A stretch of DNA of 49,472 nucleotides from an uncultured Bacteroidia bacterium. Lineage in GTDB: Bacteria > Bacteroidota > Bacteroidia > Bacteroidales > Prolixibacteraceae. Shown piece by piece: positions 31,381 through 47,100 of this stretch. The notes below the pieces were generated by a model that was given only the letters and a program-made list of their open reading frames with translations, was not told the origin of the DNA and ran no database searches. The stretch lies in contig CAIVGL010000083.1 of NCBI GenBank assembly GCA_903905505.1, positions 1 through 49,472 of the forward strand, given 5' to 3'. Made by a program: the position numbers and the translations under genes. Each line of letters opens with the position of its first letter. The stretch's first letter is position 1.

Positions 31381-32043
31381 TTAGAAGAATATTTCTGTTC
31401 GTATATTGCCTGGCATGATACCTTGATGTTCAAGGATCATCGTGACTTCATTAACCATATCTGAATTTCCACACAGGTAATAAATAGAATTTTTATCAAC
31501 CTCATGAGCTAGTATATAGTCTGTAACACGACCACTGAAATTGCCCATCTCGGCTTTTGACGTGCAGTTGATATACCGATCAGCCGAATAATCAGCTGCA
31601 TCATAAGCCTCTAGTTCATTTCGAGTCCCATGTATAAGCGTATAATTCAGCTGCGAATGGGTGAGGATCATACTATGAAAGGGCGATATGCCAGTGCCGG
31701 TAGCTACAAATGTAAAATGCTTTCCTGCTGCTAGCTCAGAATCACGAAGCACAAAGAAACCATAAGGCCCAGCTAGCTCCACTTCAGTCCCTAGCTCAAT
31801 ATTTTTTATCTCTTTAGATACTTCGCCTGGATCAACCTCCTTGATTAGTAGGTCGATGTAATCCGTATCGATAGAATTGTAAATCGAATATTCACGTGCT
31901 TTCTGTTTACCAGGGATTGTTAACACCAAATATTGACCAGCTTTAAACTGGAATCCATTCTTTTCAAGCCTTACAACATACGCTGTAGGAGTCAAATGTT
32001 TAATGGCTAATACTTTACTCTTAGTGGTCTTGATTAGTGCCAT
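31381..32043 (-). CDS. Ferredoxin/flavodoxin-NAD(P)+ reductase-like flavoprotein
   Basis: I start it at 32043 (220 residues), four bases after the lipA stop. An ATG at 32106 would overlap lipA by 59 bases and add an unconserved segment. The N-terminal FAD domain has F-K-A-G-Q-Y and the FAD motif R-E-Y-S-I-Y-N. The C-terminal NAD(P) domain has A-T-G-T-G-I-S-P-F, L-I-H-G-T-R and Y-L-C-G-N. The protein lacks an iron-sulfur domain, so it is a simple FNR-type reductase passing electrons between NAD(P)H and a ferredoxin or flavodoxin. LipA needs such electrons, so the adjacent lipA is a natural client. That pairing is inferred from position only. Confidence 0.88.
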   Translation of the reverse strand: MALIKTTKSKVLAIKHLTPTAYVVRLEKNGFQFKAGQYLVLTIPGKQKAREYSIYNSIDTDYIDLLIKEVDPGEVSKEIKNIELGTEVELAGPYGFFVLRDSELAAGKHFTFVATGTGISPFHSMILTHSQLNYTLIHGTRNELEAYDAADYSADRYINCTSKAEMGNFSGRVTDYILAHEVDKNSIYYLCGNSDMVNEVTMILEHQGIMPGNIRTEIFF

Positions 32044-32047
32044 ACGA

Positions 32048-32902
32048 TTATGCGTGAATATGACGTTCGGCGCGATACGAGGAGCGAACAAGAGGACTAC
32101 TTTCAACCATCTTGAACCCTTTTTCCAGCGCCGCTTCCCGATATTTTATGAATACTTCAGGTGTAATAAACACTTCAATCTTTAGATGGTGAGCTGTTGG
32201 CTGAAGATACTGACCAATTGTAAGCACTTTACAGCCCGATTTAAGCAAATCATCCATTGTTTCAAGCACTTCATCTTCGGTTTCACCTAAGCCCACCATA
32301 ATGCCCGATTTAGGCACTAAACCGGATGCTGCAATAAGTTCAATAACTTTTAAACTTCTATCATACCTTGCAACGTCCCGAACGCGGGGTGTTAGCCTGC
32401 GAACAGTCTCCATGTTATGAGAGATAACCTCTGGCTTAGCATCAATAACTTTTTGAATATGGGTGCTGTTGGCATAGAAGTCAGGGATCAAGGTCTCCAT
32501 CGTAATTCCAGGATTGATCTCTTTGATGGTTGTGATTGTCTTAGCCCAAAATGCGGCACCTCCATCTTCCAGATCATCGCGTGTTACTGATGTAATCACA
32601 CAGTGTTTAATCTTTAACGCTTTGATTGTTTCTGCTAATCGAAGTGGCTCATTCCAGTCCACAGCATCTGGAATCATGTTTTTCACGTCACAAAAACGAC
32701 AATTACGCGTACATTTCTCCCCTAGAATCATAAAACTAGCCGTAGATGCTCCCCAACACTCTGCCTTATTCGGACAGTTGCCACTCACACAAATTGTATT
32801 TAGTTGCTGTGCTGCAGCTAAATTTTTTAACTCCACATATTCCTTTCCAGATGGGAGCGGTGTTTTCATCCAATTGGGAAGTCTTCGAGTTGCTGTACTC
32901 AT
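32048..32902 (-). CDS. lipA: Lipoyl synthase
   Basis: LipA is a radical SAM enzyme that inserts two sulfurs into octanoyl groups on lipoyl domains. The 284-residue protein has both cluster motifs. The auxiliary cluster ligands are C38, C43 and C49. The SAM cluster ligands are C64, C68 and C71 in C-T-R-N-C-R-F-C. The C-terminal R-S-S-Y-R-A motif, needed for auxiliary-cluster turnover, is also present. It follows mevalonate kinase after 46 bases in the same direction. The lipoate it makes would be used by SucB at 16.8 kb and by the E2 partner of the branched-chain dehydrogenase at the head of this array. Confidence 0.97.
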   Translation of the reverse strand: MSTATRRLPNWMKTPLPSGKEYVELKNLAAAQQLNTICVSGNCPNKAECWGASTASFMILGEKCTRNCRFCDVKNMIPDAVDWNEPLRLAETIKALKIKHCVITSVTRDDLEDGGAAFWAKTITTIKEINPGITMETLIPDFYANSTHIQKVIDAKPEVISHNMETVRRLTPRVRDVARYDRSLKVIELIAASGLVPKSGIMVGLGETEDEVLETMDDLLKSGCKVLTIGQYLQPTAHHLKIEVFITPEVFIKYREAALEKGFKMVESSPLVRSSYRAERHIHA

Positions 32903-32948: not shown

Positions 32949-33860
32949 TTAATTAACAACGGTGTAATCAAGATGGTTCAACTTAAAATAAATTTCAGCC
33001 TTATTTCGATCCTTTGCAAGGGCTAATAGGTGTCCACCACCTCCTGATCCACAAATTTTTAGCTGAAAATCACCAGTTGAAATGCCATATTCAAAATGTT
33101 CTAAATACTGTTCTGTAATTAGCCAATCCAAATGTGAACGTTGAAACGATGAATACTCCGTTAATGAAGCCTCAAAAGTACTGAAATCATTTGCTAAAAG
33201 CGATTCAATGGTCTGATTAATTATCGGAATATAGGTGTTTTCTATGTTTTCTCTAAAGTTTGGATGACTCAATTTGTCCATGAAATTAGCCACTAGCATC
33301 CCCGTTTCACCCGATTTATTTGAATTAATCAGAAATAGGGTATAGGTTTTAAAGAAGGATGATAAGTCAATTTCGCGAATACGATTATTCGGCGAATCAA
33401 TTAATATTGGCTTATTAATCCAAGATATTAATGGGTCAATACCAGAACTAACCTGATGAAAACATGATTCGATAGCAGCTAAACGGTGCTTGATCAACAT
33501 TAGATCTGTTGTTTCGGAGCCAGGAAGCAGATACCTGTCGTAAATCGCAGCTGAGACAGCCCCTGAGCTTCCCAAGCCAGATCCAGTAGGTATGGTTGAT
33601 TGGAAGAATAATCCCTGTTTTAACTCAAGCTCAAATAATTCAATGTTCAAATAGTTGAAAGTTGAAATGTTTGCTTGGAAATATTGACCTAACTTAATTA
33701 AACTAGCATGCGAAGATTCAGATAATTCAAGGCTATGCTCATTTGGTACAGTATTTAAAGAGATCTGCCCACTATAGCTTGAATAGGGCATAGCTAATGC
33801 GTTTGCGCCCAGTAGAACTCCATATTCCCCAAATAAAATAATCTTGGCAGGATATTTCAT
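32949..33860 (-). CDS. Mevalonate kinase (GHMP family)
   Basis: This GHMP-family kinase of 303 residues fits the first phosphorylation of mevalonate. The N-terminal strand K-I-I-L-F-G-E-Y-G-V-L-L-G is typical of mevalonate kinases, and the nucleotide loop G-S-G-L-G-S-S-G lies at 93-100. A later G-I-D-P-L-I-S segment supplies the catalytic Asp region, and the C-terminal I-C-G-S-G-G-G-G-H is the third GHMP motif. Its start codon overlaps the stop of mvaD by four bases (ATGA), so the two are translationally coupled. Whether this protein or the GYDIA kinase uses mevalonate or phosphomevalonate is not certain from sequence. Confidence 0.85.
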   Translation of the reverse strand: MKYPAKIILFGEYGVLLGANALAMPYSSYSGQISLNTVPNEHSLELSESSHASLIKLGQYFQANISTFNYLNIELFELELKQGLFFQSTIPTGSGLGSSGAVSAAIYDRYLLPGSETTDLMLIKHRLAAIESCFHQVSSGIDPLISWINKPILIDSPNNRIREIDLSSFFKTYTLFLINSNKSGETGMLVANFMDKLSHPNFRENIENTYIPIINQTIESLLANDFSTFEASLTEYSSFQRSHLDWLITEQYLEHFEYGISTGDFQLKICGSGGGGHLLALAKDRNKAEIYFKLNHLDYTVVN

Positions 33861-34930
33861 TCTAAATCAAGATTTTGAGGTGTAAGGCAAACTGGACCTT
33901 CGCCGATTTTGTCATCGATCCATTTCCCATCTTCACAATAGATACTAAGTGTACGTTCAACAAAGGATAACACTTGTTCGCGCTGATCTTCGTAATAAAT
34001 AAGATGAACATTGGGACCAGCATCAATGGTGAAGAAGAGATCTAGCTGATGCTCATTTCTAAATCGTTTAATCTCGTCAATGATCTGAAGCGTATTCGGT
34101 TTTAACAAAAAACCATCAGCTCCAGAGGTCATTAGCAACGCATGGAGCGATAAAGCTTCAATTTCGGCGATTTTAGCAATATTGGCGTAATCACTGGTGC
34201 GCACGCTACTTAACAACTCTGAAATATTAGCATTCGCTTGATTTATTCGACCATTTCGGTAAGGGTGTTGCTCCATTTGAGAATGTCCGATGCTGCTTGA
34301 CATGGACTTCTCTTGTGAACTTACAATAAGGATAATATCTCGAACAGAATTAAGTCTACTTGTTTCATCAAGATTAAATGGAGATGCAAAAAGGTCAGAA
34401 GTGCCTACCTCTCCATTTACCGCTCCCCAAGTAACTAATCCACCATAGATCGATCGCGAAGCACTGCCAGATCCTAGACGAGCTATATATGATGCGCGTT
34501 GAAAAAATGTTTCTTTAGTTTGATGTGTTTGTTTAATTAATATTTCCATATGAACTAAACATAAGGCTAATGCAGCCATTGAAGATGCTGAAGAGGCTAT
34601 CCCGGTGGAGTGTGGAAAATTATTCTCACTATGAAAAACTAATTCGTAATCCACCAAAAATGGCATCTCTGGAATCAATCGATTAAGAAGGGCAGCTATT
34701 TTATTTTCAAACTTTTCTTCTCTGACTTGATGAAAAAAATAGGTCAAACTAATCCTATTGTCTTTCACTTTTTTCACCTTAAACGATAGAAATGTTGAGG
34801 TGGTTGCGTAGTCAAGAGTGATGCTTAGCGATGCATTCGCTGGGATCTGATTCTCCTTTTTACCCCAATATTTGACAAGTGCAATATTCGAAGGGGCCTT
34901 CCATCCTAATTTTATAAAGTCTTCGCTCAT
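33857..34930 (-). CDS. mvaD: Diphosphomevalonate decarboxylase
   Basis: The enzyme makes isopentenyl diphosphate from diphosphomevalonate with ATP. The 357-residue protein has the diagnostic N-I-A-L-V-K-Y-W-G-K-K near residue 16 and a phosphate loop in S-T-G-I-A-S-S-A-S-S. It also has G-S-G-S-A-S-R-S-I-Y-G-G, and the catalytic Asp in T-I-D-A-G-P-N-V-H. These separate it from kinases of the same GHMP superfamily. It lies 72 bases after the GYDIA kinase and overlaps the mevalonate kinase start, in the centre of the mevalonate block. Confidence 0.94.
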   Translation of the reverse strand: MSEDFIKLGWKAPSNIALVKYWGKKENQIPANASLSITLDYATTSTFLSFKVKKVKDNRISLTYFFHQVREEKFENKIAALLNRLIPEMPFLVDYELVFHSENNFPHSTGIASSASSMAALALCLVHMEILIKQTHQTKETFFQRASYIARLGSGSASRSIYGGLVTWGAVNGEVGTSDLFASPFNLDETSRLNSVRDIILIVSSQEKSMSSSIGHSQMEQHPYRNGRINQANANISELLSSVRTSDYANIAKIAEIEALSLHALLMTSGADGFLLKPNTLQIIDEIKRFRNEHQLDLFFTIDAGPNVHLIYYEDQREQVLSFVERTLSIYCEDGKWIDDKIGEGPVCLTPQNLDLE

Positions 34931-35002
34931 TTAAGTCTCTTTGATCTTGAATAATTGATTGAAATGCTACTCTTGGCTATTTTCATTTTCTCACATGAAA
35001 TC

Positions 35003-35947
35003 TTATACTGGAGAATTTTTCTTGAGATTATCCTTGGGCAATACGAGCTCTGCAAATCTAAAAAATGTATTAAAACCCTTTTTCTCAAAGTACTCTTTTA
35101 TTTCTGATTCAGGTTTTGAAGAGGCAACCAATATGAAATCACCTCCCCAGGCTCCAAGTGATTTAATTGATCCATGAAAATCCTTGAAGTACAAATCTTT
35201 GACTTTCTTTACTTGAAGTGTTTCTGAAATTATATTCTCGTGTTCTTCGAGTAGATCTTGAAAGGTTTGTAGGCTATCTGCTAACTCCATTGCGTTTGAA
35301 ATGGCCGTAATACGTTCAATCGTGGATGTTGTCACGCTTGAAAGATCACTCTTCTGGATGCTATCTTTGGAACTCTGTTTCCGGTTCAGATAGATGAAGT
35401 ATAAGTTCGTATGAAATTTAGGATAAAATTGTGCTTCACGATAGGTTGGTACCGAATTATCCAGGTGATACATAATCGGTGTAGAGGCTCTGGCGCAGGC
35501 AATATCATAACCTGAGCCTCCGAAGACTAACTTATTTAGCAAAAATGGATCGCATTCGGCCCATAAAGCTAGATTAGAAACCAGTGAACTGCTTGAGCCG
35601 ATTCCCCAATCGGGTTTGAAGTCCATCACGGAGGTGACCATATAATTGAGCTGATCTTCCAGAAATTTAGGATTTAATTGCTCTGCCGTCTTCAATAAAC
35701 GAACTAAAGTTTGAGCCATTTTGGAATCAGTTGTGGTTAAGATTTCAAAATTTGGCAATGACACGTTGAGTTCAAACCATAAATCGTTATTTATGAATGA
35801 TTTCCATTCGATAGATGGATCACCTGGTTGTTCTAAAACCGATAGTTCCTGTGTGTGTTTTAAAGGAAGGGCTAAGGACGATGCTCCTTGAAGAACAAGA
35901 TATTCGCCAGAAATCATCAATTTTGTATTCGACACAAAGGATTTCAT
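35003..35947 (-). CDS. GYDIA-family GHMP kinase, candidate phosphomevalonate kinase
   Basis: I start it at 35947 (314 residues), seven bases after the HMG-CoA reductase stop. The ATG at 35995 would overlap that gene by 41 bases. Visible motifs are G-E-Y-L-V-L-Q-G-A near the N-terminus, W-G-I-G-S-S-S-S-L as the nucleotide loop, and G-G-S-G-Y-D-I-A-C-A, the signature that names the GYDIA family in Bacteroidota. The analogous G-S-G-(Y/F)-D segment in eukaryotic-type phosphomevalonate kinases and the operon position make phosphomevalonate kinase the best guess, as the other pathway steps here have their own genes. The biochemical role of this family is not settled as far as I know. Confidence 0.82.
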   Translation of the reverse strand: MKSFVSNTKLMISGEYLVLQGASSLALPLKHTQELSVLEQPGDPSIEWKSFINNDLWFELNVSLPNFEILTTTDSKMAQTLVRLLKTAEQLNPKFLEDQLNYMVTSVMDFKPDWGIGSSSSLVSNLALWAECDPFLLNKLVFGGSGYDIACARASTPIMYHLDNSVPTYREAQFYPKFHTNLYFIYLNRKQSSKDSIQKSDLSSVTTSTIERITAISNAMELADSLQTFQDLLEEHENIISETLQVKKVKDLYFKDFHGSIKSLGAWGGDFILVASSKPESEIKEYFEKKGFNTFFRFAELVLPKDNLKKNSPV

Positions 35948-35954
35948 GGTCTTA

Positions 35955-37265
35955 CTACGATTTTGATTTTCTAATAAGCTGAATATACTCTTCAACAGCA
36001 GCGGAACTTATTGCATTATTGGTAAAATGAGTTATAATCTGATTTCTTTCAGCTTCGGTAACCTTAAATCCATGAAGCATATTTGTAAGGTGCATTTTCA
36101 TATGCCCTTTCTGGATCCCAGTTGTAATCAATGAGGCAATAGCAGCAAAGTTGTTTGCCAGCCCTGCAGTCGTAGCTATGGACATAAGTCCAGGTGCATC
36201 TGGGTTATTCAAAACCGACATGACTGTTTTGACAACTGGATGTATTTGTGTTATGCCACCTACTGTTCCCACTGCGATGGGGAGTTCTAATTGGTATTTA
36301 AATAGGCCGTCGGCCAATGAAATAGTCGTAAGACCTCTATACTGGCCACTCCGACTAGCGAAGGCATGTCCAGATGCTGCTGTGGCCCTAGTGTCGTTTC
36401 CTGTAGCCATTAACACAGCGTCTATGCCATTAAAGATCCCTTTATTATGGGTGACTGCTCTGGATATATCAAGGTTTGCAATATCGACTGCTTGTTTGAA
36501 TTTCAGTGCAAATTCATCAGCCGTTAATTCATTATTCCAACCTTGAAGTTTTTCAATTGGACATTCAACCCAACAGATAACTTTACAGTCTGGGGTGTAG
36601 TTTGAGAGTATCGACATGATAATCTCAACTTGGTATTTTTCGTTATTTAGCTCTTTGTCAGCCAATAGCACCTCTGCCATTTTTTCAAGGCAGCTATTGA
36701 TGAAATTAGCTCCCATCGCATTCGCTGTCTCAAAGCTAATATCCAATTGATAGTAGTTTGGTAACTCGTTGGTCTTGTCAAGCAGTTCAATCTCTTTAAT
36801 CCCACCACCACGTTGTTCCATCTTGCTGGTTAGATCGCAGGTAGCCGCATTGATTTTAAATTTCAACTCCCCAAAATAGGTGCTGATCAAGCTAGTATTG
36901 CCATTCCAAGTGAAATGAACCTGCCCTTTCTTGGTAAGCCCTTCTATTTTAGTTTTAAATCCACCTCGCTCGGCCCAATATTTACAAGCTTTAGAGGCAG
37001 CAGCAACCACAGAGCTCTCTTCGGTAACAAATGGGACACTGAACGATTGGTCATTGATTAGCATATGGCTTACGACTCCCATAGGAAATGGAAAATTCCC
37101 TATGTAGTTTTCAATCATCTCACTAATTATATGTTGTTGGTCATCGTTCGGAGCATTGAAGTTGTTAAGGCCAAGAGCGTCTGATTCACTCAGCTCAGAG
37201 TGATTTACTAGGTATTCAATACGTTGTTTGCGATTGAATTTAGAAAATCCGGATTTAACACTCAT
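35955..37265 (-). CDS. Hydroxymethylglutaryl-CoA reductase, class II-like
   Basis: The enzyme reduces HMG-CoA to mevalonate. The 436-residue soluble protein resembles class II bacterial reductases, which annotation often calls degradative. Catalytic residues are the Glu in V-T-E-E-S-S-V-V-A-A-A-S, the Lys in H-N-K-G-I-F-N-G-I-D, the Asp in A-T-G-N-D-T-R-A, and a C-terminal His in K-M-H-L-T-N-M. There are no membrane spans. Because the genes for converting mevalonate to IPP follow directly in the same array and no HMG-CoA lyase is nearby, the biosynthetic direction is favoured over mevalonate breakdown. Cofactor preference (NADH or NADPH) cannot be read. Confidence 0.94.
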   Translation of the reverse strand: MSVKSGFSKFNRKQRIEYLVNHSELSESDALGLNNFNAPNDDQQHIISEMIENYIGNFPFPMGVVSHMLINDQSFSVPFVTEESSVVAAASKACKYWAERGGFKTKIEGLTKKGQVHFTWNGNTSLISTYFGELKFKINAATCDLTSKMEQRGGGIKEIELLDKTNELPNYYQLDISFETANAMGANFINSCLEKMAEVLLADKELNNEKYQVEIIMSILSNYTPDCKVICWVECPIEKLQGWNNELTADEFALKFKQAVDIANLDISRAVTHNKGIFNGIDAVLMATGNDTRATAASGHAFASRSGQYRGLTTISLADGLFKYQLELPIAVGTVGGITQIHPVVKTVMSVLNNPDAPGLMSIATTAGLANNFAAIASLITTGIQKGHMKMHLTNMLHGFKVTEAERNQIITHFTNNAISSAAVEEYIQLIRKSKS

Positions 37266-37353
37266 TTAAATGGCTATTTAATTGATTAACAGTTAGTCTT
37301 TCGGTTATTGCAGGATGCTATTTTGAATTGCGAAGGAATCACTTGGCAATTCT

Positions 37354-38373
37354 CTACTTGCTCTTCGGATCTTTAAGCGTTAAATAATTGGTTGCCATTC
37401 GATATCCTTCTATCTGGGCAGAAACAAACTGTTGTAATTCGGCATAGTCGCCTTGACTGTAGCGCAAGAAAGAGGAAGCTTGTGCATATATGGCAGGAAG
37501 GATAGATTTCTGCGTCAAATAATAGCCGTCAAGATAATTATGAATGCCACCTGAGATGATCAATTGATTACACTTAAATTTCTCACCCTTCATAATCATG
37601 CCATTGATGAGATCAACCATCTCTTCTGCAGTAGAACCTACATGAACAAAAGGCTGGAATAACTCTTTATCCTTTATAGAGCTTCTGTGAAGTTCAACTT
37701 TAGAAAAATTTGTTCCGCCAAAAGCGCCAAATTCAACTGCGGCAAGTGGTAGCTGCAATAAGCGACGTATGCTTTGCGGTCCGAATCCTTGACCAACCTC
37801 TTTCAGAATTAATTGAAAGTCAATTTTTTCTAAAAGTCTCTCGATGGTTTCGATGGGAGGGTGCTGTATGATATCGCCTTCAGGCTGCACCCATTCTTGC
37901 AGTGGATTGATATGAATGATAAGTCCATCAGCTTGTAATCGGTCTATTAGGCGCCTTAAATCATCTGTTTTCTTGCTTTCCAGCATCTTTTCAATCTGTG
38001 CAATTCCCAGATTGGCAAATAGAGGATTCTCATCTCCAATTAGCGAACGAACATTGAAATCATTAAAATAGGTGTCGTCGCTAAGGAGCATCCGGCAGGA
38101 TCCTAGACCCATTCCCAAACCAAACTCGTTGCATGCTCTGGCCAGATTGCGATTAATTGCTCCGGATTTAAGATGACCACCAGTCATGCTTGACACCCAG
38201 ATCGGAACTTTAAGTGATTTGCCTGCAAACGCCGTTTCCTGTAGCGGTTTATTTGGGAATCCAGCAAGCATTGGCTCGTAATAAAAGCGGGAGTCTACCT
38301 CGTTGACTAAGGTCTGAGATTCAAGAGCCAATCTAATATGATCTATTTTTCGTTGTGAATCGTCAGAAGCCAT
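37354..38373 (-). CDS. fni: Type 2 isopentenyl-diphosphate isomerase
   Basis: This FMN enzyme interconverts IPP and DMAPP. The 339-residue protein has the type 2 pattern: R-K-I-D-H-I near the N-terminus, W-V-S-S-M-T-G-G, then G-L-G-S-C-R in the FMN site, and H-I-N-P-L-Q-E-W, where the Gln is the catalytic residue region. A C-terminal I-I-S-G-G-I-H phosphate-binding motif is also present. It precedes HMG-CoA reductase by 88 bases and follows the acyl-CoA dehydrogenase by 40 bases, so it is the joint between the catabolic block and the mevalonate block. It needs reduced FMN, for which the reductase at the end of the array is one possible donor. Confidence 0.95.
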   Translation of the reverse strand: MASDDSQRKIDHIRLALESQTLVNEVDSRFYYEPMLAGFPNKPLQETAFAGKSLKVPIWVSSMTGGHLKSGAINRNLARACNEFGLGMGLGSCRMLLSDDTYFNDFNVRSLIGDENPLFANLGIAQIEKMLESKKTDDLRRLIDRLQADGLIIHINPLQEWVQPEGDIIQHPPIETIERLLEKIDFQLILKEVGQGFGPQSIRRLLQLPLAAVEFGAFGGTNFSKVELHRSSIKDKELFQPFVHVGSTAEEMVDLINGMIMKGEKFKCNQLIISGGIHNYLDGYYLTQKSILPAIYAQASSFLRYSQGDYAELQQFVSAQIEGYRMATNYLTLKDPKSK

Positions 38374-38413
38374 TATTTTGAAAGTTTAGGTAGGCATTGA
38401 AACCTGGATAAGA

Positions 38414-39556
38414 CTATAAAACATGTCTTGAAATGACCATTTTTAGAATCTCAGAGGTACCTTCACCAATGGAGAGTAGACGCTGATCTCTAAAGAATCG
38501 TTCTATGTGGTTTTCTTTCAGGAATCCGAAGGCACCATGAATCTGTAATGAGTCGTCTGCCACTTCACGAGCGATATCAGAACAATAGAGTTTCGACATC
38601 GCAGCTTGTTTTGCAAACGGAAGTCCTGCTTCTTTAAGTCTACAGGTATGGTATAAGGTATTCCGAGCCATTTCAATTTTAGTTGCCATTTCGGCTAGCT
38701 TAAAGGAGATGGCTTGAAATTCAGATAATGATTTGCCAAATTGTTTTCTTTTAGAGGCGTAATCGGCAGCCATTTCAAAAGCACCCTGTGCTAGGCCAAG
38801 ACCTATTGCAGCTATTGATAGTCTTCCGCCATCTAGTGTTGAAAGCATGATTTTCATCCCTTCTCCGCGCTTGCCAAGTAGGTTTGACTCTGGGACCTTG
38901 CAGTTTTCGAAATTTATCTTTCCGTTATCTACAGCACGCCACATTAATTTCCCTTTGATCGGTGAAGTGGTATAACCTTCTGTTGAACGAGGAAGTAGAA
39001 TAGCAGAAAGTTCCTTCTTGCCATCTTTTTCACCTGTAATAGCCTGAGCAGTAATTCCCTTGGCGATTTCAGAACAGCTGTTGGTGATAAACATTTTACC
39101 TCCATTGATTGTCCACATTCCATTTTCAAGTGACGCGATCGTTTCTACTCCTTTTGCATCAGAGCCAGCATTGGTCTCAGTTAAACCAAAAGCCCATAAT
39201 TTTTCACCAGAACAAAGCTCAGGCAGATAAGCAGTCCGCTGTTCCTCCGTGCCAAAAACATAAATAGGACTAATGCCTAGTGAATTATGCGCTGCGATGG
39301 TAGCTGCCGGTGAGCTGTCGACACGCGCTAGCTCTTCTACGGCAATGATATAGGAGAGGTAATCAAGTCCTTGTCCGCCGTATTGTTTAGGTATTGTTAT
39401 GCCGAATAACCCAGCCTGACCCATTTTGAGGGCCAATTCGACAGGAAATTCTTCTATCTCATCTTGGTGTACAGCAATTGGTTTCACTTCAGCCTCGGCA
39501 AACTCTCTTACCTTGGCTCTATAATCAATGTACTGTTGTGGTAATAACTCATTCAT
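38414..39556 (-). CDS. Acyl-CoA dehydrogenase, short/branched-chain type
   Basis: This 380-residue flavoprotein has the standard three-domain acyl-CoA dehydrogenase fold. The FAD-binding stretch is A-F-G-L-T-E-T-N-A-G-S-D, and the C-terminal I-G-E-G-T-S-E-I carries the catalytic base E365. Context suggests isovaleryl-CoA as substrate, the step between the branched-chain dehydrogenase and methylcrotonyl-CoA carboxylase. However, classical isovaleryl-CoA dehydrogenases place the catalytic Glu in an internal helix (L-D-x-E-R) and have G-A-G-T at the C-terminal site. Here the internal site reads L-D-G-G-R and the C-terminal Glu is present, the layout of short-chain and 2-methyl-branched enzymes. 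The start overlaps the upstream biotin subunit stop by one base (TAATG). Family is certain, substrate open. Confidence 0.93.
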   Translation of the reverse strand: MNELLPQQYIDYRAKVREFAEAEVKPIAVHQDEIEEFPVELALKMGQAGLFGITIPKQYGGQGLDYLSYIIAVEELARVDSSPAATIAAHNSLGISPIYVFGTEEQRTAYLPELCSGEKLWAFGLTETNAGSDAKGVETIASLENGMWTINGGKMFITNSCSEIAKGITAQAITGEKDGKKELSAILLPRSTEGYTTSPIKGKLMWRAVDNGKINFENCKVPESNLLGKRGEGMKIMLSTLDGGRLSIAAIGLGLAQGAFEMAADYASKRKQFGKSLSEFQAISFKLAEMATKIEMARNTLYHTCRLKEAGLPFAKQAAMSKLYCSDIAREVADDSLQIHGAFGFLKENHIERFFRDQRLLSIGEGTSEILKMVISRHVL

Positions 39557-41556
39557 TAAAAATCCTCCAGAAATACTAAGGGCATTCGGTCAGTGACTTG
39601 CGCCCCTACATTGACAGCTATTTTTCTTACTCGACCATCTTTAGGTGATAAAATACGATTTTCAGATTTCATCGCTTCAATCACCATGATAAGATCGCCT
39701 TTTTTTATGAGTTGATTCTCCGAAATGTTAATCTCTAAAACCCTACCGTGAAGTGGTGAATTAATCTCGCCACTCTCATTTAAAAGCTCATTTTCAGTGT
39801 TGTAATTACTTTCAGGAAAGCTATTTAGTGATCCTGGGAAAGAACATTGATACTGAATATGCTGATAACAAATCTGAAGATCATTCTCAAGAACAAAAAT
39901 AGCAGAAATTCTGCTATTCTGATTAGCAAAAATTAAGTTAATGTTATTTTCCGAATTTTCACTGAATTTAAACGTATGTTTAATGTCATTGATTGTAATT
40001 GATGGGTTTAACTTCTCTTTTAGATGTAGGATAAGGCAGTGTTTTTCTCCATTAACAACTAGTTGAATTGAAGAATCGGTCAAACGCCAAGAATTAAGCT
40101 GATTCCAGGGGTTCTGACTATTCACTCGATTGTTTTTAAGGTATTTAAAATAGACTGCTCCAGCAAGAACAGGCAAAAGCTCCGATACTGCCTTCGAAGG
40201 GCTATAGTCAGCGATTAAGGTCGAATGTTCGATTTTGCAAAAATCAATTGAAATTTTGTTTTGTTGGTAGGCTGGATGATTCAATATTTTATCAAGGTAA
40301 CTAGCATTTGTCGTGGGGCCAATAATGCTCAGATCTTTAAGCTGTAGTTGAAGCAGTTTAATGGCTGCTGTTCTATCCTTTGCGGTTGAAATAAGCTTAA
40401 TTAGCAAAGGGTCAAACTGAATCCCATTTGAATTTGAGATGTTTAGATCTGATTCTATCCTTATATCTTTGTGATTTGGTATCGTAGCCGACAGCACCGG
40501 AAATGTGGATGGCGTGAAATTTGTAGATGGATTTTCTGCGTATACTCGAACCTCAATCGCGTGACCATTAGCCTTGATCTCCTTTTGAGACACCGATAAA
40601 GGTAATCCTGAGACTATACGCAACTGTTCGTGAACGATGTCTAACCCCGTAATCTGCTCAGATATAGCATGTTCCACCTGAATCCGGGGATTCATCTCCA
40701 TAAAGAAAAAGTTGCCTGAATCATCTACCAAAAATTCGACCGTGCCAGCACCTGTGTATTTTAGAGCTTTGCCAATTGTTAGTGCAGCAGTTAGTATTTT
40801 AGACCTTAAACCTTCGGAAAGGAAGAGGGCAGGAGCCTCCTCTACGATCTTTTGATGATTGCGTTGAATAGAACATTCGCGTTCGTATAAGTGTATGATA
40901 TTATTGTGATTATCTCCAATTATTTGAACTTCTACATGACGTGCATTCTGAATGTATTGCTCGGCAAATATGGTTCCATTACCAAAATAACTTAAGGCCA
41001 CACGAGATGATTTTTCCATCTTCTGGTGAAGATCATCTAATGAATAGACCAATTCCATACCCTTTCCACCACCACCGAAAGCCGCTTTGATGAGAATTGG
41101 AAAATCGAGTTGGGTCTCTTTGGTTGGAGGATTTGCTAAATTCAATGCATAAGACTTAGCCATCGGGATTCCAAGAGTTGAGACAAATTTCTTGGCCTCT
41201 GGCTTGCTGCTCATCAGGTTTAAAACTTCCGAAGATGGACCAATAAATAATATTCCATTCTCTTCGCAGGCTTTTGCGAAAGCAGGATCCTCCGATAAAA
41301 AGCCATATCCAGGGTGAATAGCTTGAACGCCAGTGGACTTAGCGATATCAATGATCTTTTCTATATTCAGGAAGGTGGTGGTCAGTGATCCTTTACCTAA
41401 GCTAACCTGTTGATCGGCTAAAGTGACATAGGATGAATGACTTTCGCTTTCGACATAAATAGCCACAGTCTTAATCCCCAATTTATTGGCCGAACGAATA
41501 ATTCGCAACGCGATTTCTCCTCTATTCGCAATTAAAATTTTGGATATTAAGCTCAT
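39556..41556 (-). CDS. Methylcrotonyl-CoA carboxylase biotin-carrying alpha subunit
   Basis: The 666-residue chain joins biotin carboxylase and biotin carrier domains. The N-terminal half (to about 450) starts K-I-L-I-A-N-R-G-E-I-A and contains the ATP-grasp loop G-G-G-G-K-G-M-E and E-M-N-P-R-I-Q-V-E-H. A middle domain bridges to the C-terminal biotinyl domain, with biotin-Lys K630 in E-A-M-K-S-E. This layout is shared by methylcrotonyl-, propionyl- and geranyl-CoA carboxylase alpha subunits. The array's methylcrotonyl-type beta subunit decides the call. It follows the hydratase gene by 48 bases and overlaps the acyl-CoA dehydrogenase by one base. Confidence 0.92.
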   Translation of the reverse strand: MSLISKILIANRGEIALRIIRSANKLGIKTVAIYVESESHSSYVTLADQQVSLGKGSLTTTFLNIEKIIDIAKSTGVQAIHPGYGFLSEDPAFAKACEENGILFIGPSSEVLNLMSSKPEAKKFVSTLGIPMAKSYALNLANPPTKETQLDFPILIKAAFGGGGKGMELVYSLDDLHQKMEKSSRVALSYFGNGTIFAEQYIQNARHVEVQIIGDNHNNIIHLYERECSIQRNHQKIVEEAPALFLSEGLRSKILTAALTIGKALKYTGAGTVEFLVDDSGNFFFMEMNPRIQVEHAISEQITGLDIVHEQLRIVSGLPLSVSQKEIKANGHAIEVRVYAENPSTNFTPSTFPVLSATIPNHKDIRIESDLNISNSNGIQFDPLLIKLISTAKDRTAAIKLLQLQLKDLSIIGPTTNASYLDKILNHPAYQQNKISIDFCKIEHSTLIADYSPSKAVSELLPVLAGAVYFKYLKNNRVNSQNPWNQLNSWRLTDSSIQLVVNGEKHCLILHLKEKLNPSITINDIKHTFKFSENSENNINLIFANQNSRISAIFVLENDLQICYQHIQYQCSFPGSLNSFPESNYNTENELLNESGEINSPLHGRVLEINISENQLIKKGDLIMVIEAMKSENRILSPKDGRVRKIAVNVGAQVTDRMPLVFLEDF

Positions 41557-41604
41557 TTATATCGTAAATGCTAAAGTCTTTTGATACATTAACAAGTCAT
41601 CAAC

Positions 41605-42393
41605 TTATTTGTTCCAATTCGGCTTTCTTTTCTCTAGAAAAGCCGAAAATCCTTCCCTAGCTTCCAGAGATACTCTTGTTCGGGCCAATAATTGAGGAAG
41701 AGAATCCTTGAACGGAGAAATATTATTCATGACAAGCTTATTTAATACCTTTTTTGATTCGATTATGGCTTGCGTTCCATTTTGCAAAATCTGAGTGGTG
41801 ATTTTTCCCAATTCTAAATCTAGTTTATCTGCTGAATCGAATGATTTATTGACTAAATTCAAATTCATTGCATCTGATCCATTAAAGAGATTTGCTGTAA
41901 ATATTAGCTCTTTGAGCTGCGAATGGTTTATCTTTAGTAATAAATATGGGGTAATCGTAGCTGCAACCACGCCTAATTTTGCTTCACTTAAAACAAATCT
42001 AGAATCGCTAACACAGTATGCAAGATCACAAGTTGCGATGATTCCTATGGCTCCACCGTATGCATTTCCATGAATGGCGGCAATCACAACTTTACTACTT
42101 GAATAAATGGTACTGAAAAGTTGTGCTAATGTTTCACACTCTTTTAGGTTCTCCTCTGGTGTTAGTGCAAATGATTTTTCCATCCAGGACAAATCAGCTC
42201 CTGAGCAGAATGATTTTCCTTCACCACGTAAAATAACAATCCGTATTGTAGCGTTAGTCTCTATTTCATTAAAAATTGAGATAAGCTCTTCTATCATAAT
42301 GTTGTTTAAGGCATTATGAACTTCTGGTCTTGCGAAATAGATCGTTGCAATCTGATCTTTTTCGACGTATTTTAGGGTGGTATATTTTGACAT
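41605..42393 (-). CDS. Methylglutaconyl-CoA hydratase-like crotonase
   Basis: The 262-residue enoyl-CoA hydratase/isomerase has F-C-S-G-A-D-L-S-W-M, the CoA-binding oxyanion segment typical of LiuC-type methylglutaconyl-CoA hydratases. It also has G-N-A-Y-G-G-A-I-G and S-E-A-K-L-G-V-V-A-A-T-I-T-P-Y; the last is close to the family's L-G-(L/V)-x-x-A-T-I-x-P-Y. The first catalytic Glu of standard crotonases is absent, while the second (in S-E) is kept, a pattern that also occurs in bacterial methylglutaconyl-CoA hydratases. The reaction would hydrate 3-methylglutaconyl-CoA to HMG-CoA. It lies between the two carboxylase subunit genes, 109 bases after the beta subunit. Substrate assignment leans on the neighbours. 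Confidence 0.85.
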   Translation of the reverse strand: MSKYTTLKYVEKDQIATIYFARPEVHNALNNIMIEELISIFNEIETNATIRIVILRGEGKSFCSGADLSWMEKSFALTPEENLKECETLAQLFSTIYSSSKVVIAAIHGNAYGGAIGIIATCDLAYCVSDSRFVLSEAKLGVVAATITPYLLLKINHSQLKELIFTANLFNGSDAMNLNLVNKSFDSADKLDLELGKITTQILQNGTQAIIESKKVLNKLVMNNISPFKDSLPQLLARTRVSLEAREGFSAFLEKRKPNWNK

Positions 42394-42502
42394 TGATATA
42401 TTCTAGTTTTAGGGTTATTCTCTGAATACTAGGTTAGGTTTGAGCGACAATTTAAACCATTGAGTGTTTAAATTACTGAGTTATTGGAAGCCAATTACCT
42501 TA

Positions 42503-44068
42503 TTACATTCTATAGATTCCATTTTTTGGTGAAGGGGTCTTTTTATTCGAGGCTATCGCAATTGCAAGTCCGACCACAGATCTGGTGTCCATTGGATCAA
42601 TTATTCCGTCATCCCAAAGTCTTGATGTACTGTAATATGCAGAGCTTTCCTGCTCAAATTGAGTGACTAGATCGTTATTTTGATCATTTCCTTTCCCTTT
42701 GATCGAATTTAAAACATCTTGTGCTTGCTGGCCACCCATGACCCCAATCTTGGCGTTTGGCCACATGAATAGGAAATTAGGGTTGTAAGCTCTTCCAGCC
42801 ATCGCATAGTTTCCAGCACCAAATGAGCCGCCAATTACGACGGTTATTTTTGGAACTACCGATGTGGCTACTGCGTGTATCAGCTTAGCTCCATTGCGGG
42901 CTATACCTTCGTGTTCGTACTTTTTACCTACGATAAAACCGGATATATTCTGTAAAAAGAGAAGTGGGATCTTTCTGAAATTACAGATCTCAATAAAATG
43001 AGCCCCTTTAAGTGATGCTTCAGAGGTTAAAAACCCATTGTTTGCAATTATTCCAACTGGAAAACCCATAATTCTGGCATAACCGGTGATCAACGTTGTG
43101 CCATAATCCTTTTTGAAATGTTCGAATTGACTTCCATCGGTAATTCGAGCGATAATCTCCAGAATATCGATCGGTTTCTTTAGGTCGATAGGTGCAAATC
43201 CATATAATTCACTGGCCTTATAGAGCGGTTCTTCTAACGGAAATGGGTCAAAAGACTGAGAATCGCTTTGTGGTATTGATTCAAAGATATTTCGACAAAT
43301 ACGAATTGCATCTATTTCATTTTCAGCCATATGATCTGCAACACCTGATATTGCTGTGTGTACGAATGCTCCGCCTAGCTCTTCCGCTGTCACCTCTTCG
43401 CCTGTTGCGGCCTTCACAAGAGGTGGTCCTCCAATAAATATGGTCCCTTGGTTTTTAACGATGATTGTCTCATCGCTCATGGCTGGAACATATGCTCCAC
43501 CAGCGGTGCAGGAGCCCATCACAATCGATATCTGAGGGATACCCAATGCCGACATTTGTGATTGGTTGTAAAATATTCTTCCAAATCCATCTTGATCAGG
43601 AAAGATCCGTGCTTGTTCAGGCAAGAATATACCACCTGAATCGACTAAATAAACACATGGAAGGTGATTTTGCAAGGCGATCTCCTGAGCACGTAAATGT
43701 TTCTTGACCGTTTCGTGAATATAAGTACCCCCTTTGACGGTTGCATCATTGGCAATAATTAAGCATATTTTACCCTGTATTTTCCCTATTCCAGTAATGA
43801 TTCCAGCAGAAGGGAATTGGTTCTCATATTGACCGTATGCGGCTAATGTGGAGAGTTCTAAGAAAGGGGTCTGCTCATCGATCAACAAATCGATTCGTGT
43901 TCGTGCAGTCAATTTACCTCTTGAGAGATGTTTCTGGACAGCTGAATCTTCATCCCGATGAATAGTTTTATTCATTCTAGAATTAAAAATGTCCATTAGG
44001 GCTTGATAGGACTCAACTCTTGCTTGAAATTGATCCTCTGGTTGTATGTGAGATTGAATCTTCTTCAA
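42503..44068 (-). CDS. Methylcrotonyl-CoA carboxylase carboxyltransferase beta subunit
   Basis: The enzyme transfers CO2 from biotin to 3-methylcrotonyl-CoA, giving 3-methylglutaconyl-CoA. The 521-residue sequence has segments particular to methylcrotonyl enzymes rather than propionyl ones. These are F-P-D-Q-D-G-F-G-R-I-F-Y-N-Q, G-S-C-T-A-G-G-A-Y-V-P-A-M-S-D, G-P-P-L-V-K-A-A-T-G-E-E-V, and G-N-Y-A-M-A-G-R-A-Y-N-P with M-G-G-Q-Q-A. It follows the branched-chain dehydrogenase E1 by 14 bases. This is the strongest single marker that the array handles leucine. Confidence 0.95.
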   Translation of the reverse strand: MKKIQSHIQPEDQFQARVESYQALMDIFNSRMNKTIHRDEDSAVQKHLSRGKLTARTRIDLLIDEQTPFLELSTLAAYGQYENQFPSAGIITGIGKIQGKICLIIANDATVKGGTYIHETVKKHLRAQEIALQNHLPCVYLVDSGGIFLPEQARIFPDQDGFGRIFYNQSQMSALGIPQISIVMGSCTAGGAYVPAMSDETIIVKNQGTIFIGGPPLVKAATGEEVTAEELGGAFVHTAISGVADHMAENEIDAIRICRNIFESIPQSDSQSFDPFPLEEPLYKASELYGFAPIDLKKPIDILEIIARITDGSQFEHFKKDYGTTLITGYARIMGFPVGIIANNGFLTSEASLKGAHFIEICNFRKIPLLFLQNISGFIVGKKYEHEGIARNGAKLIHAVATSVVPKITVVIGGSFGAGNYAMAGRAYNPNFLFMWPNAKIGVMGGQQAQDVLNSIKGKGNDQNNDLVTQFEQESSAYYSTSRLWDDGIIDPMDTRSVVGLAIAIASNKKTPSPKNGIYRM

Positions 44069-44082
44069 TTTACTTGTTTTTA

Positions 44083-46509
44083 TCAGTCGTAAAGGCCTGG
44101 AAACTTATCCGGATTTACTTCGTGCATGATCTGATACACAGCCTCTATAACCGTTTCTGTGTTAGGTTTTGAGAAATATTCTCCGTCTGTGCCATAAGCT
44201 CCTCTATGCACTTTTGCGGTGTGTGTGCGAGGTGGGCACTCAAGGTATTTAAATGCTTTTTGCTCTTCGATCACTTTTTGCATCATAAAGGCAGTAGCTC
44301 CTCCAGGAACATCCTCATCAACAAAGAGTATCTTTTTTGTCTTTTGAACGGAGCGGCTAATAATATGTTGCGTATCGAATGGTATTAAGGTCTGAACATC
44401 AATTAATTCGACATCTATTCCTAAGGTTTTCAGACGATTAACAGCGCTGTGAGCTACAGTGACATTCCAGCCGTAAGTGACTAGTGTTAGGTCTGTTCCT
44501 GCTTCAATAATCTCTGGTACTCCTAATGGAACTGTAAATTCGCCTAGGTTTTGAGGAAGATTTTCTCGTATATAATATCCCTTTAATGGTTCAATCACTA
44601 AAGCTGGATTATGAATCTTAAGAAGCATATTGTAGAAACCGGCTGCTTGAGTCATATTTCTAGGAACACATATATTGACACCTGTCAGTGAACCTAGCAG
44701 CATGCTCATTGGAGACCCAGAATGCCACATTCCTTGCAATTGATGACCTCTGGTACGAATAATCAATGGAGCTATCTGCTGACCAGCTGAACGATAATAT
44801 AATGTCGACAAGTCATCGGAAATAGTTGGTAAGGCATACAATAGGTAGTCGAGGTATTGGATTTCTGCAATAGGCCTAAATCCTCTAAGCGCTAGTCCTA
44901 TACCTTGTCCGATAATAGTTGCCTCTCGAATACCGGTGTCTCCAACGCGATGTGCCCCATATTTGGCTTGCATCCCTTTTAAACCCTGGTTAACATCGCC
45001 TAATTTTCCGGTGTCTTCACCAAAGGTTATTAATAACGGATATTTGGCAAATAACACATCGAAATTATGATTTAGAACTTCATGAGCTGGCACAGATTCT
45101 GGTTCTTCACCATAGCTAGCCTTGATCTCATTTGTTGCGTTGAAGTGATCTAAGTCATTAAATACATGAGTGTTATACTTCTCTTTTCCTTTAAGTTCAA
45201 TTTTTGATATCCAATTGGAGAGATTCTGTTTGTTCTTTTGAACCGAAAGGTCACCATGCATGGAACGCAATTGTGTTTTTGCTAGGGCCAGTAATTTTTT
45301 TCTGGTCGGGAAGGCAGCAGCAAGCACTTGTTCGAGTTCGTTCTCTATTTTCGATTGAATATCGCTATGTTCTATGCCAATGGAATCAATTAAATCTTGC
45401 AATTCCGCTTTTTCTTCTTCGAACTCTTGAATAAACGATTGCCATGCTAGATCTTTCGCCATTCGTGCACGTTCGGTAGCTTTTTTCTCTAAGCTTTCAA
45501 TGGTATCAAGGTCTGCGAAATCTTGTGAGATGATCCACTCTCTAAATATCAAAATTGGATCGTGGGCTTTCTCCCATGCGATACGTTTATCACTCTTATA
45601 ACGTTCATGGGATCCAGATGTTGAATGCCCTAGAGGTTGTGTCAGTTGAGTAATATGAAATACCACTGGGGTATGTTGTTCGCGACAAATTCGAATTCCC
45701 TTTTCAAAGGTTTCAATTAACGCAACGTAATCATATCCAGGGCAGACAAGGATTTTACAGCCTAAGTCATTCTCGTCGGTTTCAAACCCTTTTAAAGCCT
45801 TTGAGATACTTGCTTTAGCGGTTTGTAATTCAACAGGTACGCTAATGCCAAAGCCATCATCATAAACGGCTATAGCCAATGGTACTTGAAGTACACAGGC
45901 GGCATTGATGGTTTCGAAAAACATCCCTTCAGAAGTACTCGATTCTCCAATGGTGCCAAATGCAACTTCGTTTCCAGTAACTTTATCAGTTAGGTATTGT
46001 CCTAATTCGGGATGCTCTCTGACAACCTTTGAAGCTTGCGCTAGTCCAAGAAGACGAGGCATCTGTCCACCTGTAGAGGAGACATCGGCCGAAGAGTTTT
46101 TTTGATTTAGTAGATTGTCAATTCCAACACCTGCAGTAAATGTTTTTGTCGAGTGATGGTTATTAAAATTACGACCTCCAGTAGCCGGATTATTGGCTAG
46201 GTCAGTATCTCCATAGATCTGAGCGAAGAACTCTTCAGGAGCCAATAAGTCAGCAGCCATCATAAAGGTTTGATCTCTATAATACCCTGATCTCCAGTCC
46301 CCTTTTTGAAAAAACTTAGCGTAAGCCACCTGGGCTAACTCTTTTCCGTCCCCGAAAATACCAAAATGGGCACGACCAGCATGCACCTCTCTACGACCTA
46401 AAATACTTAGCTGACGACTAAGGTAGGCGGTATAGTAATCGTTAATAACGACCTCTTTGGTAATAATCGCGGATATTTTTTGTTTCTCTTCTTTCAGATG
46501 CATATTCAA
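44083..46509 (-). CDS. Fused branched-chain 2-oxoacid dehydrogenase E1 (alpha-beta)
   Basis: The 808-residue protein joins the alpha and beta E1 subunits in one chain, a form common in Bacteroidota. The alpha half (to about 440) contains the thiamine-binding region between G-E-S-S-T-S-E-G and D-D-G-F-G, and an active-site loop with H-S-T-S-G-S-H. The beta half has F-G-E-D-T-G, G-V-N-type and G-G-A-T-A-F-M-M-Q segments of the transketolase C-terminal domain. E1 decarboxylates 2-oxo acids from leucine, isoleucine and valine and acylates lipoyl-E2. No E2 or E3 gene lies next to it. The start could be residue 3, a small difference. It heads the array, which implies that branched-chain substrates feed the route. 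Confidence 0.9.
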   Translation of the reverse strand: MNMHLKEEKQKISAIITKEVVINDYYTAYLSRQLSILGRREVHAGRAHFGIFGDGKELAQVAYAKFFQKGDWRSGYYRDQTFMMAADLLAPEEFFAQIYGDTDLANNPATGGRNFNNHHSTKTFTAGVGIDNLLNQKNSSADVSSTGGQMPRLLGLAQASKVVREHPELGQYLTDKVTGNEVAFGTIGESSTSEGMFFETINAACVLQVPLAIAVYDDGFGISVPVELQTAKASISKALKGFETDENDLGCKILVCPGYDYVALIETFEKGIRICREQHTPVVFHITQLTQPLGHSTSGSHERYKSDKRIAWEKAHDPILIFREWIISQDFADLDTIESLEKKATERARMAKDLAWQSFIQEFEEEKAELQDLIDSIGIEHSDIQSKIENELEQVLAAAFPTRKKLLALAKTQLRSMHGDLSVQKNKQNLSNWISKIELKGKEKYNTHVFNDLDHFNATNEIKASYGEEPESVPAHEVLNHNFDVLFAKYPLLITFGEDTGKLGDVNQGLKGMQAKYGAHRVGDTGIREATIIGQGIGLALRGFRPIAEIQYLDYLLYALPTISDDLSTLYYRSAGQQIAPLIIRTRGHQLQGMWHSGSPMSMLLGSLTGVNICVPRNMTQAAGFYNMLLKIHNPALVIEPLKGYYIRENLPQNLGEFTVPLGVPEIIEAGTDLTLVTYGWNVTVAHSAVNRLKTLGIDVELIDVQTLIPFDTQHIISRSVQKTKKILFVDEDVPGGATAFMMQKVIEEQKAFKYLECPPRTHTAKVHRGAYGTDGEYFSKPNTETVIEAVYQIMHEVNPDKFPGLYD

Positions 46510-46596: not shown

Positions 46597-47100
46597 TTAG
46601 TCTGCTAAGGATTCATTTTCAAATCCTTGCTGCAAGGCTACCATCTTAAGTGCGGTAACGGCAGCTTCATCACCTTTGTTTCCTAATTTACCACCCGCTC
46701 TGTCGAGTGCTTGTTGCTGATTCTCGGTTGTTAAAACACCAAAAATGATAGGAAGGTTATATTTTATGTTTAGATCAGTGGCACCTTGAGCCACACCCTG
46801 ACAGATAAAATCAAAATGACGTGTTTCACCTTGGATCACACATCCCAATAAAATTACAGCGTCTACATCTGTATACTCAGCAAAAAACTGTCCACCTAAG
46901 GTTAATTCAAAACTTCCAGGAACATGTTTGATGTGAATATTTTCTTGCTTAACACCATGATTCAGAAGTGTTTTAGATGCTCCATCCGCCAATGCGCCAG
47001 TGATCTCATAATTCCATTCAGAAACTACAATGCCAAATTTCATCTCATTGCCAAGAGGAACAGAATTAAGATCGTACGCAGAAAGATTTATTGTCGCCAT
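46597..47100 (-). CDS. ribH: 6,7-dimethyl-8-ribityllumazine synthase
   Basis: RibH makes lumazine from the ribityl pyrimidine and dihydroxybutanone phosphate in riboflavin synthesis. The 167-residue protein has the substrate-contact segment V-S-E-W-N near 27, G-S-F-E-L near 62, and [12 protein letters not shown] with the catalytic His near 94. F-G-V-L-T-T is also typical. The family forms a pentamer or icosahedral shell. It precedes the twelve-gene array by 87 bases; the same strand could allow read-through, but it has its own -7 element. No other rib gene adjoins it. The flavin enzymes of the array (acyl-CoA dehydrogenase, IPP isomerase, reductase) would be consumers of its product. Confidence 0.96.

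Follow-up and report, generated by a model that had tools for sequence, protein, structure and literature searches.

A conserved Prolixibacteraceae gene array joining leucine breakdown to mevalonate genes: a putative route to isoprenoids

Can a bacterium draw isoprenoids directly from leucine? The question is raised by a 49,472-nucleotide stretch of DNA (the window), which is the whole of contig CAIVGL010000083.1 (C83) in the 2.9-Mb genome of an uncultured Bacteroidia bacterium of the family Prolixibacteraceae (GCA_903905505.1; 129 contigs, 97.3% complete). One tight run of minus-strand genes at positions 32949-46509 carries genes for leucine degradation followed, in transcription order, by genes of the mevalonate pathway. 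The run encodes a 2-oxoacid dehydrogenase E1, the beta subunit of methylcrotonyl-CoA carboxylase (MCC, with subunits MCCa and MCCb), a hydratase, MCCa, an acyl-CoA dehydrogenase (ACAD), type 2 isopentenyl-diphosphate isomerase (IDI2), 3-hydroxy-3-methylglutaryl-CoA (HMG-CoA) reductase (HMGR), a GYDIA-family kinase, diphosphomevalonate decarboxylase (MVD) and mevalonate kinase (MVK). All enzyme families leading from isovaleryl-CoA through HMG-CoA to isopentenyl diphosphate (IPP) and dimethylallyl diphosphate (DMAPP) are present in the array, with GYDIA presumed to act as phosphomevalonate kinase and ACAD presumed to act on isovaleryl-CoA. We consider it likely that the array is a dedicated shunt from leucine (2-ketoisocaproate) to isoprenoids, through which the C5 skeleton of isovaleryl-CoA would enter IPP intact. 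This reading is well supported by genomics, from which we also infer substrate specificities, direction, co-transcription and physiological role.

Conservation of the gene order

Gene order, strand and coordinates are as given in the initial annotation, and the gene identities hold at the family level. The co-oriented run extends beyond the ten genes listed there, to RibH 5' of E1 and to LipA and a ferredoxin reductase-like gene 3' of MVK. Measured between coding stretches without stop codons, the successive gaps from E1 to MVK are 17, 112, 51, 2, 43, 91, -38, 75 and -1 bases. Scans for promoters and terminators returned signals at shuffle level only.

A survey of relatives for the same gene order identified the array as a conserved unit. 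Counting the window, there are 25 distinct loci in which HMGR has MCC genes next to it, and these keep the nine-gene core order completely or in part. In a sample of 41 related genomes, HMGR is present in 22 and adjacent to MCC genes in 18 (14 of the 18 genomes of the window's genus, three more in the family and one in another family of the order); 15 of these 18 array genomes are at least 90% complete. The contig of a further genome, G037, begins at HMGR, hence adjacency to MCC genes is not visible there. Among named genomes, the array was found in 11 of the best 80 of 582 loci, a list ranked by similarity rather than a measure of prevalence. Four of the 11 lie on contigs already counted, and the seven new loci belong to the cultured Tangfeifania diversioriginum DSM 27063, Sunxiuqinia sp., three Prolixibacteraceae metagenome-assembled genomes and two others labelled Bacteroidales. 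In the most distant loci, the array proteins are about 31-67% identical to those of the window. Some incomplete loci end at contig ends; IDI2 had no match in L211, L216 and L227, nor the hydratase in L036 and L227. E1, initially annotated as the first gene of the array, is next to MCCb in 11 loci, none of which lies outside the window's genus; its membership stands in this genus and does not extend to the wider set of loci. RibH adjoins E1 in 11 loci of the genus. YidC is a neighbour of the array in the window and in eight relatives from the same genus.

Protein distances of the leucine half and of the mevalonate half are strongly correlated (r 0.91-0.97, 190 pairs from 20 loci), a comparison that lacks a housekeeping-gene control, which counts against our reading. 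Together, the 25 loci and the co-divergence of the two halves place the array far beyond chance. Purifying selection acts on the array genes, with dN/dS ratios of 0.03-0.22 for 13 genes against the close species G004 (E1 over 498 codons, FNR over 165) and for nine genes against G007, likewise close. A FastTree tree built from 135 HMGR rows has a weak branch (60%), at which the program flags long branches, that sets 28 rows linked to the array or to ACAD, together with two others, apart from the 105 non-array rows; the array HMGRs may have a single origin. Separately, E1 of G004 was matched as two pieces about 44 bases apart (L045:3501-5968) and may be interrupted or misassembled, and G015 and G002 have a second HMGR of another type (L010, L011; about 390 bits to PF00368).

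The downstream half is shared with other Bacteroidota mevalonate clusters (IDI2-HMGR-GYDIA-MVD-MVK). In the class-wide sample, we fetched 40 HMGR loci out of 67 HMGR-positive genomes (one locus had no match): their mevalonate halves are 26-55% identical to that of the window, none has MCC genes beside HMGR, and five show a weak ACAD match (33-43%) within 20 kb. The attempt to link other Bacteroidia HMGRs to leucine by neighbourhood failed on these 40 loci.

HMG-CoA synthase, HMG-CoA lyase and the methylerythritol phosphate genes

If the array is a shunt, the usual source of HMG-CoA would be dispensable. HMG-CoA synthase and HMG-CoA lyase had been reported absent from the window, and both absences extend to the whole genome at the sensitivity used. 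The synthase family PF08540 was found in none of the 41 relatives, the window's own genome included, while the same search was positive in four of 14 control genomes. Over 247 Bacteroidia genomes it returned weakly scored synthases in 11 (42-102 bits); three of these, when scanned, reached 254-276 bits to TIGR01835 (cut-off 360), yet this was the best of all models. We therefore rejected PF08540 alone as proof of absence, since it scores Bacteroidota synthases weakly, and replaced it by BLAST and a Bacteroidota profile (A1) built from the 11 synthases. Over the 247 genomes, A1 recovered these 11 with scores of at least 597 bits, as expected of profile members, and nothing else above 28.5 bits; at E <= 0.001 it matched 22 genomes, the other 11 in frames of 332-388 amino acids (aa), KASIII-like in size. 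Its only clear match in the relatives was in G036 (E 1e-19), an archaeal-type synthase outside the profile, in a genome without HMGR match. The other five matches at E <= 10 had E-values of 0.015 or worse, and the sole array genome among them, G012, stood at 0.65. BLAST with a Flavobacteriaceae synthase against 49 genomes recovered five of five known positives, at 285-831 bits; in the other genomes, which include 14 array genomes with Tangfeifania among them, no match exceeded 24 bits.

The two PF00682 matches in the window's genome are pieces of LeuA at contig ends, so that LeuA is encoded there; lyases of the CitE type were outside this search. In other array genomes, we scanned one PF00682 match each in G019 and G015, and both were aldolase-like; the remaining ones, judged by frame length, are mostly of LeuA size or about 600 aa. 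HMGL-like proteins of about 320 aa in relatives (G019, G020, G021, G022, G026 and G028) were at first candidate HMG-CoA lyases; the one scanned, of G019, fits 4-hydroxy-2-oxovalerate aldolase models, and those of G020, G026 and G028 begin like it.

Array genomes also carry genes of the methylerythritol phosphate (MEP) pathway. DXR was found in 37 of the 41 relatives; of the 18 array genomes 15 have it, the exceptions being G000, G002 and G005. IspG was found in 26 of the 27 genomes searched, among them 21 of 22 array genomes, including the window's own and Tangfeifania; it is missing in G009, where DXR is present. The lack of DXR in the window's genome may be an assembly gap, IspG being present. 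None of the sample's 18 array genomes is without at least one of DXR and IspG, and we rejected the array as sole isoprenoid source; it would rather be a second source of IPP. The proposed bypass from leucine to isoprenoids is supported by the conserved gene order and by the synthase and lyase searches, and given up as the only route.

Predicted enzymes and alternative readings

In the proposed shunt, E1 and a presumed lipoylated E2 would convert 2-ketoisocaproate to isovaleryl-CoA, and ACAD would take this to 3-methylcrotonyl-CoA. The ATP- and biotin-dependent MCC would then form 3-methylglutaconyl-CoA, to be converted to HMG-CoA by the hydratase. From there HMGR, MVK, GYDIA (as phosphomevalonate kinase), MVD and IDI2 would lead through mevalonate to IPP and DMAPP. 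In the known chemistry of these steps, the carboxyl group that MCC introduces ends up as mevalonate's free carboxylate and is lost at MVD; CO2 would therefore act as a temporary activating group and the C5 unit would pass intact. HMG-CoA synthase would be dispensable, and HMG-CoA lyase, not found in the window's genome, would not drain HMG-CoA. An MCC-type carboxyltransferase with an ATP-dependent alpha subunit favours the carboxylating direction, and together with the kinases it would fix the direction towards IPP. The array would thus provide an accessory supply of IPP linking leucine to prenyl products.

The feature list is given in Table 1. The set typical of liu-type (leucine/isovalerate utilisation) clusters, namely both MCC subunits, methylglutaconyl-CoA hydratase and acyl-CoA dehydrogenase, is present at the family level, with one exception by name. 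When compared with PDB chains, MCCb scored 567-617 bits to those named MCC, 644 to AccD1, 661 to an unspecific 'carboxyl transferase domain protein' and 432 to geranyl-CoA carboxylase (GCC), which it therefore does not resemble in type; chains named propionyl-CoA carboxylase (PCC) gave 272 bits or less, apart from 9tps. These scores place MCCb in the MCC sequence group, 9tps being the exception. In MCCa, the ATP-grasp and biotinyl-Lys motifs are conserved among array homologues; at least 19 of the 23 sequences have (A/S)MK(S/T) at the biotin site, where the usual biotinylation motif is AMKM. The best NCBIfam models of the hydratase, PRK07468 and PRK05674, are LiuC-like and both score below cut-off, and its PDB matches include, at rank seven of eight, a putative isohexenylglutaconyl-CoA hydratase. 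E1, initially annotated as branched-chain, belongs to the E1 family, and its sequence does not distinguish a branched-chain from a pyruvate substrate. HMGR, MVK, MVD and IDI of the classical mevalonate pathway are present at the family level with their catalytic motifs. GYDIA, presumed to be the phosphomevalonate kinase, is the only enzyme of this half above its cut-off (351.7 of 225 bits); Pfam at E <= 1e-5 gave no family for GYDIA or IDI2.

We compared motifs of known catalytic role across 23 array sequences, or fewer for some proteins (MCCb 20, IDI2 20, hydratase 18, E1 10), judging some of those of ACAD, hydratase, GYDIA, MVK and the biotin site from the six commonest variants. In 23 of 23 sequences HMGR retains the Glu, Lys, Asp and His of its four motifs, and ACAD its GEGTSE motif. 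All 20 MCCb sequences have the three motifs of that protein, which differ, if at all, by a single substitution at the first position.

Table 1. Features of the array and its co-oriented neighbours in the window
Feature	Coordinates	Strand	Basis
Lumazine synthase RibH, 5' neighbour	46597..47100	-	TIGR00114, 152 bits
Fused 2-oxoacid dehydrogenase E1 alpha/beta, 808 aa, presumed branched-chain E1	44083..46509	-	Pfam PF00676, PF02779, PF02780
Methylcrotonyl-CoA carboxylase beta (carboxyltransferase), MCCb	42503..44068	-	PDB-chain scores
LiuC-like 3-methylglutaconyl-CoA hydratase (crotonase family)	41605..42393	-	NCBIfam PRK07468, PRK05674 (below cut-off); PF00378
Methylcrotonyl-CoA carboxylase alpha (biotin carboxylase + biotin carrier), MCCa	39556..41556	-	Best PDB match MCC alpha
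Acyl-CoA dehydrogenase (ACAD), short-chain-like, presumed isovaleryl-CoA dehydrogenase	38414..39556	-	PDB matches; GEGTSE motif
Type 2 isopentenyl-diphosphate isomerase, IDI2	37354..38373	-	TIGR02151, E 2.5e-54, below curated cut-off
Class II-type HMG-CoA reductase, HMGR	35955..37265	-	PF00368, 273.6 bits
GYDIA-family GHMP kinase, presumed phosphomevalonate kinase	35003..35995	-	NF040656, 351.7 bits, above cut-off
Diphosphomevalonate decarboxylase, MVD	33857..34930	-	TIGR01240, E 4.1e-49, just below cut-off; PF22700, PF18376; TIDAGPN motif
Mevalonate kinase, MVK	32949..33860	-	TIGR00549, E 3.9e-24, below cut-off; GLGSS, SSGID motifs
Lipoyl synthase LipA, 3' neighbour	32048..32902	-	TIGR00510, 336 bits, above cut-off
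Ferredoxin/flavin reductase-like gene, end of co-oriented run	31381..32106	-	PF00970, PF00175

Several neighbours of the array appear to agree with the shunt, as does the presence of LeuA in the window's genome. LipA, which would serve the E2 of a ketoacid dehydrogenase, is next to the array in 13 of the 14 loci of the genus (the remaining one is cut) and in L048 (G024), L216 and L227. In Tangfeifania, leuB-like and citramalate/isopropylmalate synthase-like genes lie just upstream of the array. A MenA-like UbiA prenyltransferase follows MVK directly in five loci, not in the window (L048:15555-16490, L049:9752-10687, also L033, L036 and L042); two were identified by model scan and three by similarity.

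Several further points weigh against the shunt. Since MEP genes coexist with the array, its essentiality cannot be inferred, and HMGR is missing from four of the 18 genomes of the genus (two of them 64% and 78% complete), which makes the array accessory. Four Marinifilaceae loci hold ACAD-IDI2-HMGR-GYDIA-MVD-MVK or only the genes from IDI2 onward, MCC genes being absent from the locus. Four mevalonate enzymes score below their NCBI equivalog cut-offs (MVK 85.6 of 163 bits, MVD 167.3 of 171.4, HMGR 255 of 260, IDI2 184.5 of 281), at E-values of 1e-24 to 1e-75, and are divergent. The chain 9tps, named PCC beta, gives 633 bits to MCCb, and MCCa barely separates MCC from PCC, with 442 bits to its best PDB match, an MCC alpha, and 399 to a PCC alpha. 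By sequence placement, ACAD is not of the isovaleryl-CoA dehydrogenase (IVD) type: it scored 361 bits to unnamed acyl-CoA dehydrogenases (its best matches), 269-292 to named short-chain or butyryl ones and 209-229 to IVD, and the stretch that we take to hold the catalytic Glu of IVD has none in the six commonest variants (19 of 23 rows). Its isovaleryl-CoA assignment comes from context, because homologues 59-60% identical adjoin MCCb and hydratase genes in G212 and G181 (family f80). Finally, a synthase or lyase of non-homologous type may be present in array genomes.

This last point would suit a reading in which the halves are independent modules, neighbours or co-regulated, with an unrecognised lyase completing leucine breakdown to acetyl-CoA and an unrecognised synthase feeding the mevalonate genes. 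The absences do rest on known families, with the CitE-type lyase outside the search, and the array enzymes are divergent; we nevertheless hold this reading unlikely, given three negative synthase searches that recovered known positives, PF00682 matches limited to LeuA pieces in the window's genome, a gene order kept over deep divergence, and a related leucine cluster, in G212, that does have recognisable lyase-like genes. A different substrate for the acyl part (external isovalerate, acyclic terpenes degraded through a GCC-type carboxylase, or another short acyl-CoA) seems improbable. The hydratase also matches the NCBIfam model of gamma-carboxygeranoyl-CoA hydratase, E1 is unlinked outside the genus and one PCC-named chain scores like MCC; against these stand the lower score of MCCb to GCC than to MCC-named chains, the linkage of E1 and LipA in the genus and the leuB-like gene upstream in Tangfeifania.

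Flux could also run in reverse, as it does in the alternative pathway of myxobacteria, with HMG-CoA or scavenged mevalonate feeding the synthesis of isovaleryl-CoA for iso-branched fatty acids. The best NCBIfam match of HMGR is the degradative model and that of ACAD is a reductase, acryloyl-CoA reductase. We give this reading very little credence: the myxobacterial synthesis uses HMG-CoA synthase, and none was found here as a starter by PF08540, A1 or BLAST; an MCC with an ATP-dependent alpha subunit works poorly backwards; MVK, GYDIA, MVD and IDI2 are sensible only towards IPP; and E1 and LipA, beside the array in the genus, would already give isovaleryl-CoA. Pfam identified no AibAB-type 3-methylglutaconyl-CoA decarboxylase among the ten array genes, to which the search was confined.

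Related systems and isoprenoid supply in Bacteroidota

Liu-type clusters end in HMG-CoA lyase. In these clusters and in that of G212 (L279), MCCb, hydratase and ACAD genes lie near one another, as in the array, where the position of the lyase is taken by IDI2-HMGR-GYDIA-MVD-MVK. The G212 proteins are 62% (MCCb), 41% (hydratase) and 59% (ACAD) identical to those of the array, and the cluster has, besides CoA-transferase genes (ScoAB), two genes resembling HMG-CoA lyase, which score 185 and 171 bits against a cut-off of 246; it would be an ordinary-looking leucine catabolic cluster. The contig of G181 ends before the corresponding region. As a separate observation, the f80 clusters (L279:8733-19000, L280:99-7950) pair MCCb with a protein of 718-720 aa where a biotin carboxylase is expected. 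The L279 protein is OadA/PycB-like with a biotin domain, and the pairing suggests a putative ATP-free transcarboxylase for 3-methylcrotonyl-CoA. In G036 (L282:65-4480), a hydratase, a 735-aa protein beginning like the f80 one and the archaeal-type HMG-CoA synthase are encoded side by side.

The chemistry of the shunt has precedents. Section 3.1.2 of PMC8791446 describes a leucine shunt to terpenoids in Halobacterium salinarum and Leishmania mexicana, with the same five steps from leucine to HMG-CoA and then mevalonate. That shunt is known from labelling, and the passage gives no gene cluster; here there is a single array, in Bacteroidota, with no recognisable HMG-CoA synthase and with MEP genes in the same genomes. 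In myxobacteria, the passages of PMC7321100 likewise lead from 3-methylcrotonyl-CoA through HMG-CoA to isoprenoids: a sesquiterpene takes up labelled dimethylacrylate, and acetate gave no significant shift. These passages mention no fused leucine-mevalonate cluster, and M. xanthus has the HMG-CoA synthase MvaS (titles in the reference list of PMC9636800), unlike the array genomes, in which none is recognisable. Leucine-derived isoprenoids thus have a bacterial precedent in myxobacteria, besides Halobacterium and Leishmania, and the initial annotation, which named trypanosomatids, needs this correction. The gene-cluster form is new; among the matches listed in the open-licence literature, we found no fused leucine-mevalonate cluster. 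The novelty lies in a cluster that lacks the synthase, in the lineage that carries it and in the MEP genes found alongside.

HMGR without a recognisable synthase also occurs elsewhere in the class. Of the 67 HMGR-bearing genomes among the 247, 41 lack DXR; HMG-CoA synthase is present in 11 of these 41 and not found in 30, which include the window's genome. In the 29 others (out of 40 sampled), BLAST agrees that the synthase is not found; three are less than 90% complete (G214, G263, G268), and DXR was the only MEP gene tested there. The 29 (for example G234, L123, and G174, L124) include two single-contig genomes, one of which belongs to the same genus as three synthase-bearing genomes. Masked or missing sequence may lie behind these absences. 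According to section 15 of PMC4026382, phosphomevalonate kinase is the one mevalonate enzyme lacking in E. anophelis and F. branchiophilum, a state that it describes as general in Flavobacteriaceae; set against this, our data suggest patchy loss of the synthase within genera. An MCCb-like match at E <= 1e-100 occurs in 28 of the 29 synthase-less genomes and in 227 of all 247, and its presence is therefore not discriminating; eight of ten fetched MCCb loci had no MCC alpha match. As a tentative extension, less likely to be right than wrong, leucine or ketoisocaproate, in place of acetyl-CoA condensation, could be the general source of HMG-CoA in much of Bacteroidota, of which the array would be the hard-wired form, making the synthase dispensable.

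According to PMC9636800, degradation of branched-chain amino acids is not something on which the mevalonate pathway depends, and the array would run counter to that statement. As a bacterial cluster, it would unite leucine breakdown with isoprenoid synthesis and dispense with HMG-CoA synthase, and in the cultured Tangfeifania diversioriginum DSM 27063 it would offer an acetyl-CoA-independent module for IPP. The finding bears on isoprenoid supply in those Bacteroidota that have HMGR but no recognisable synthase.

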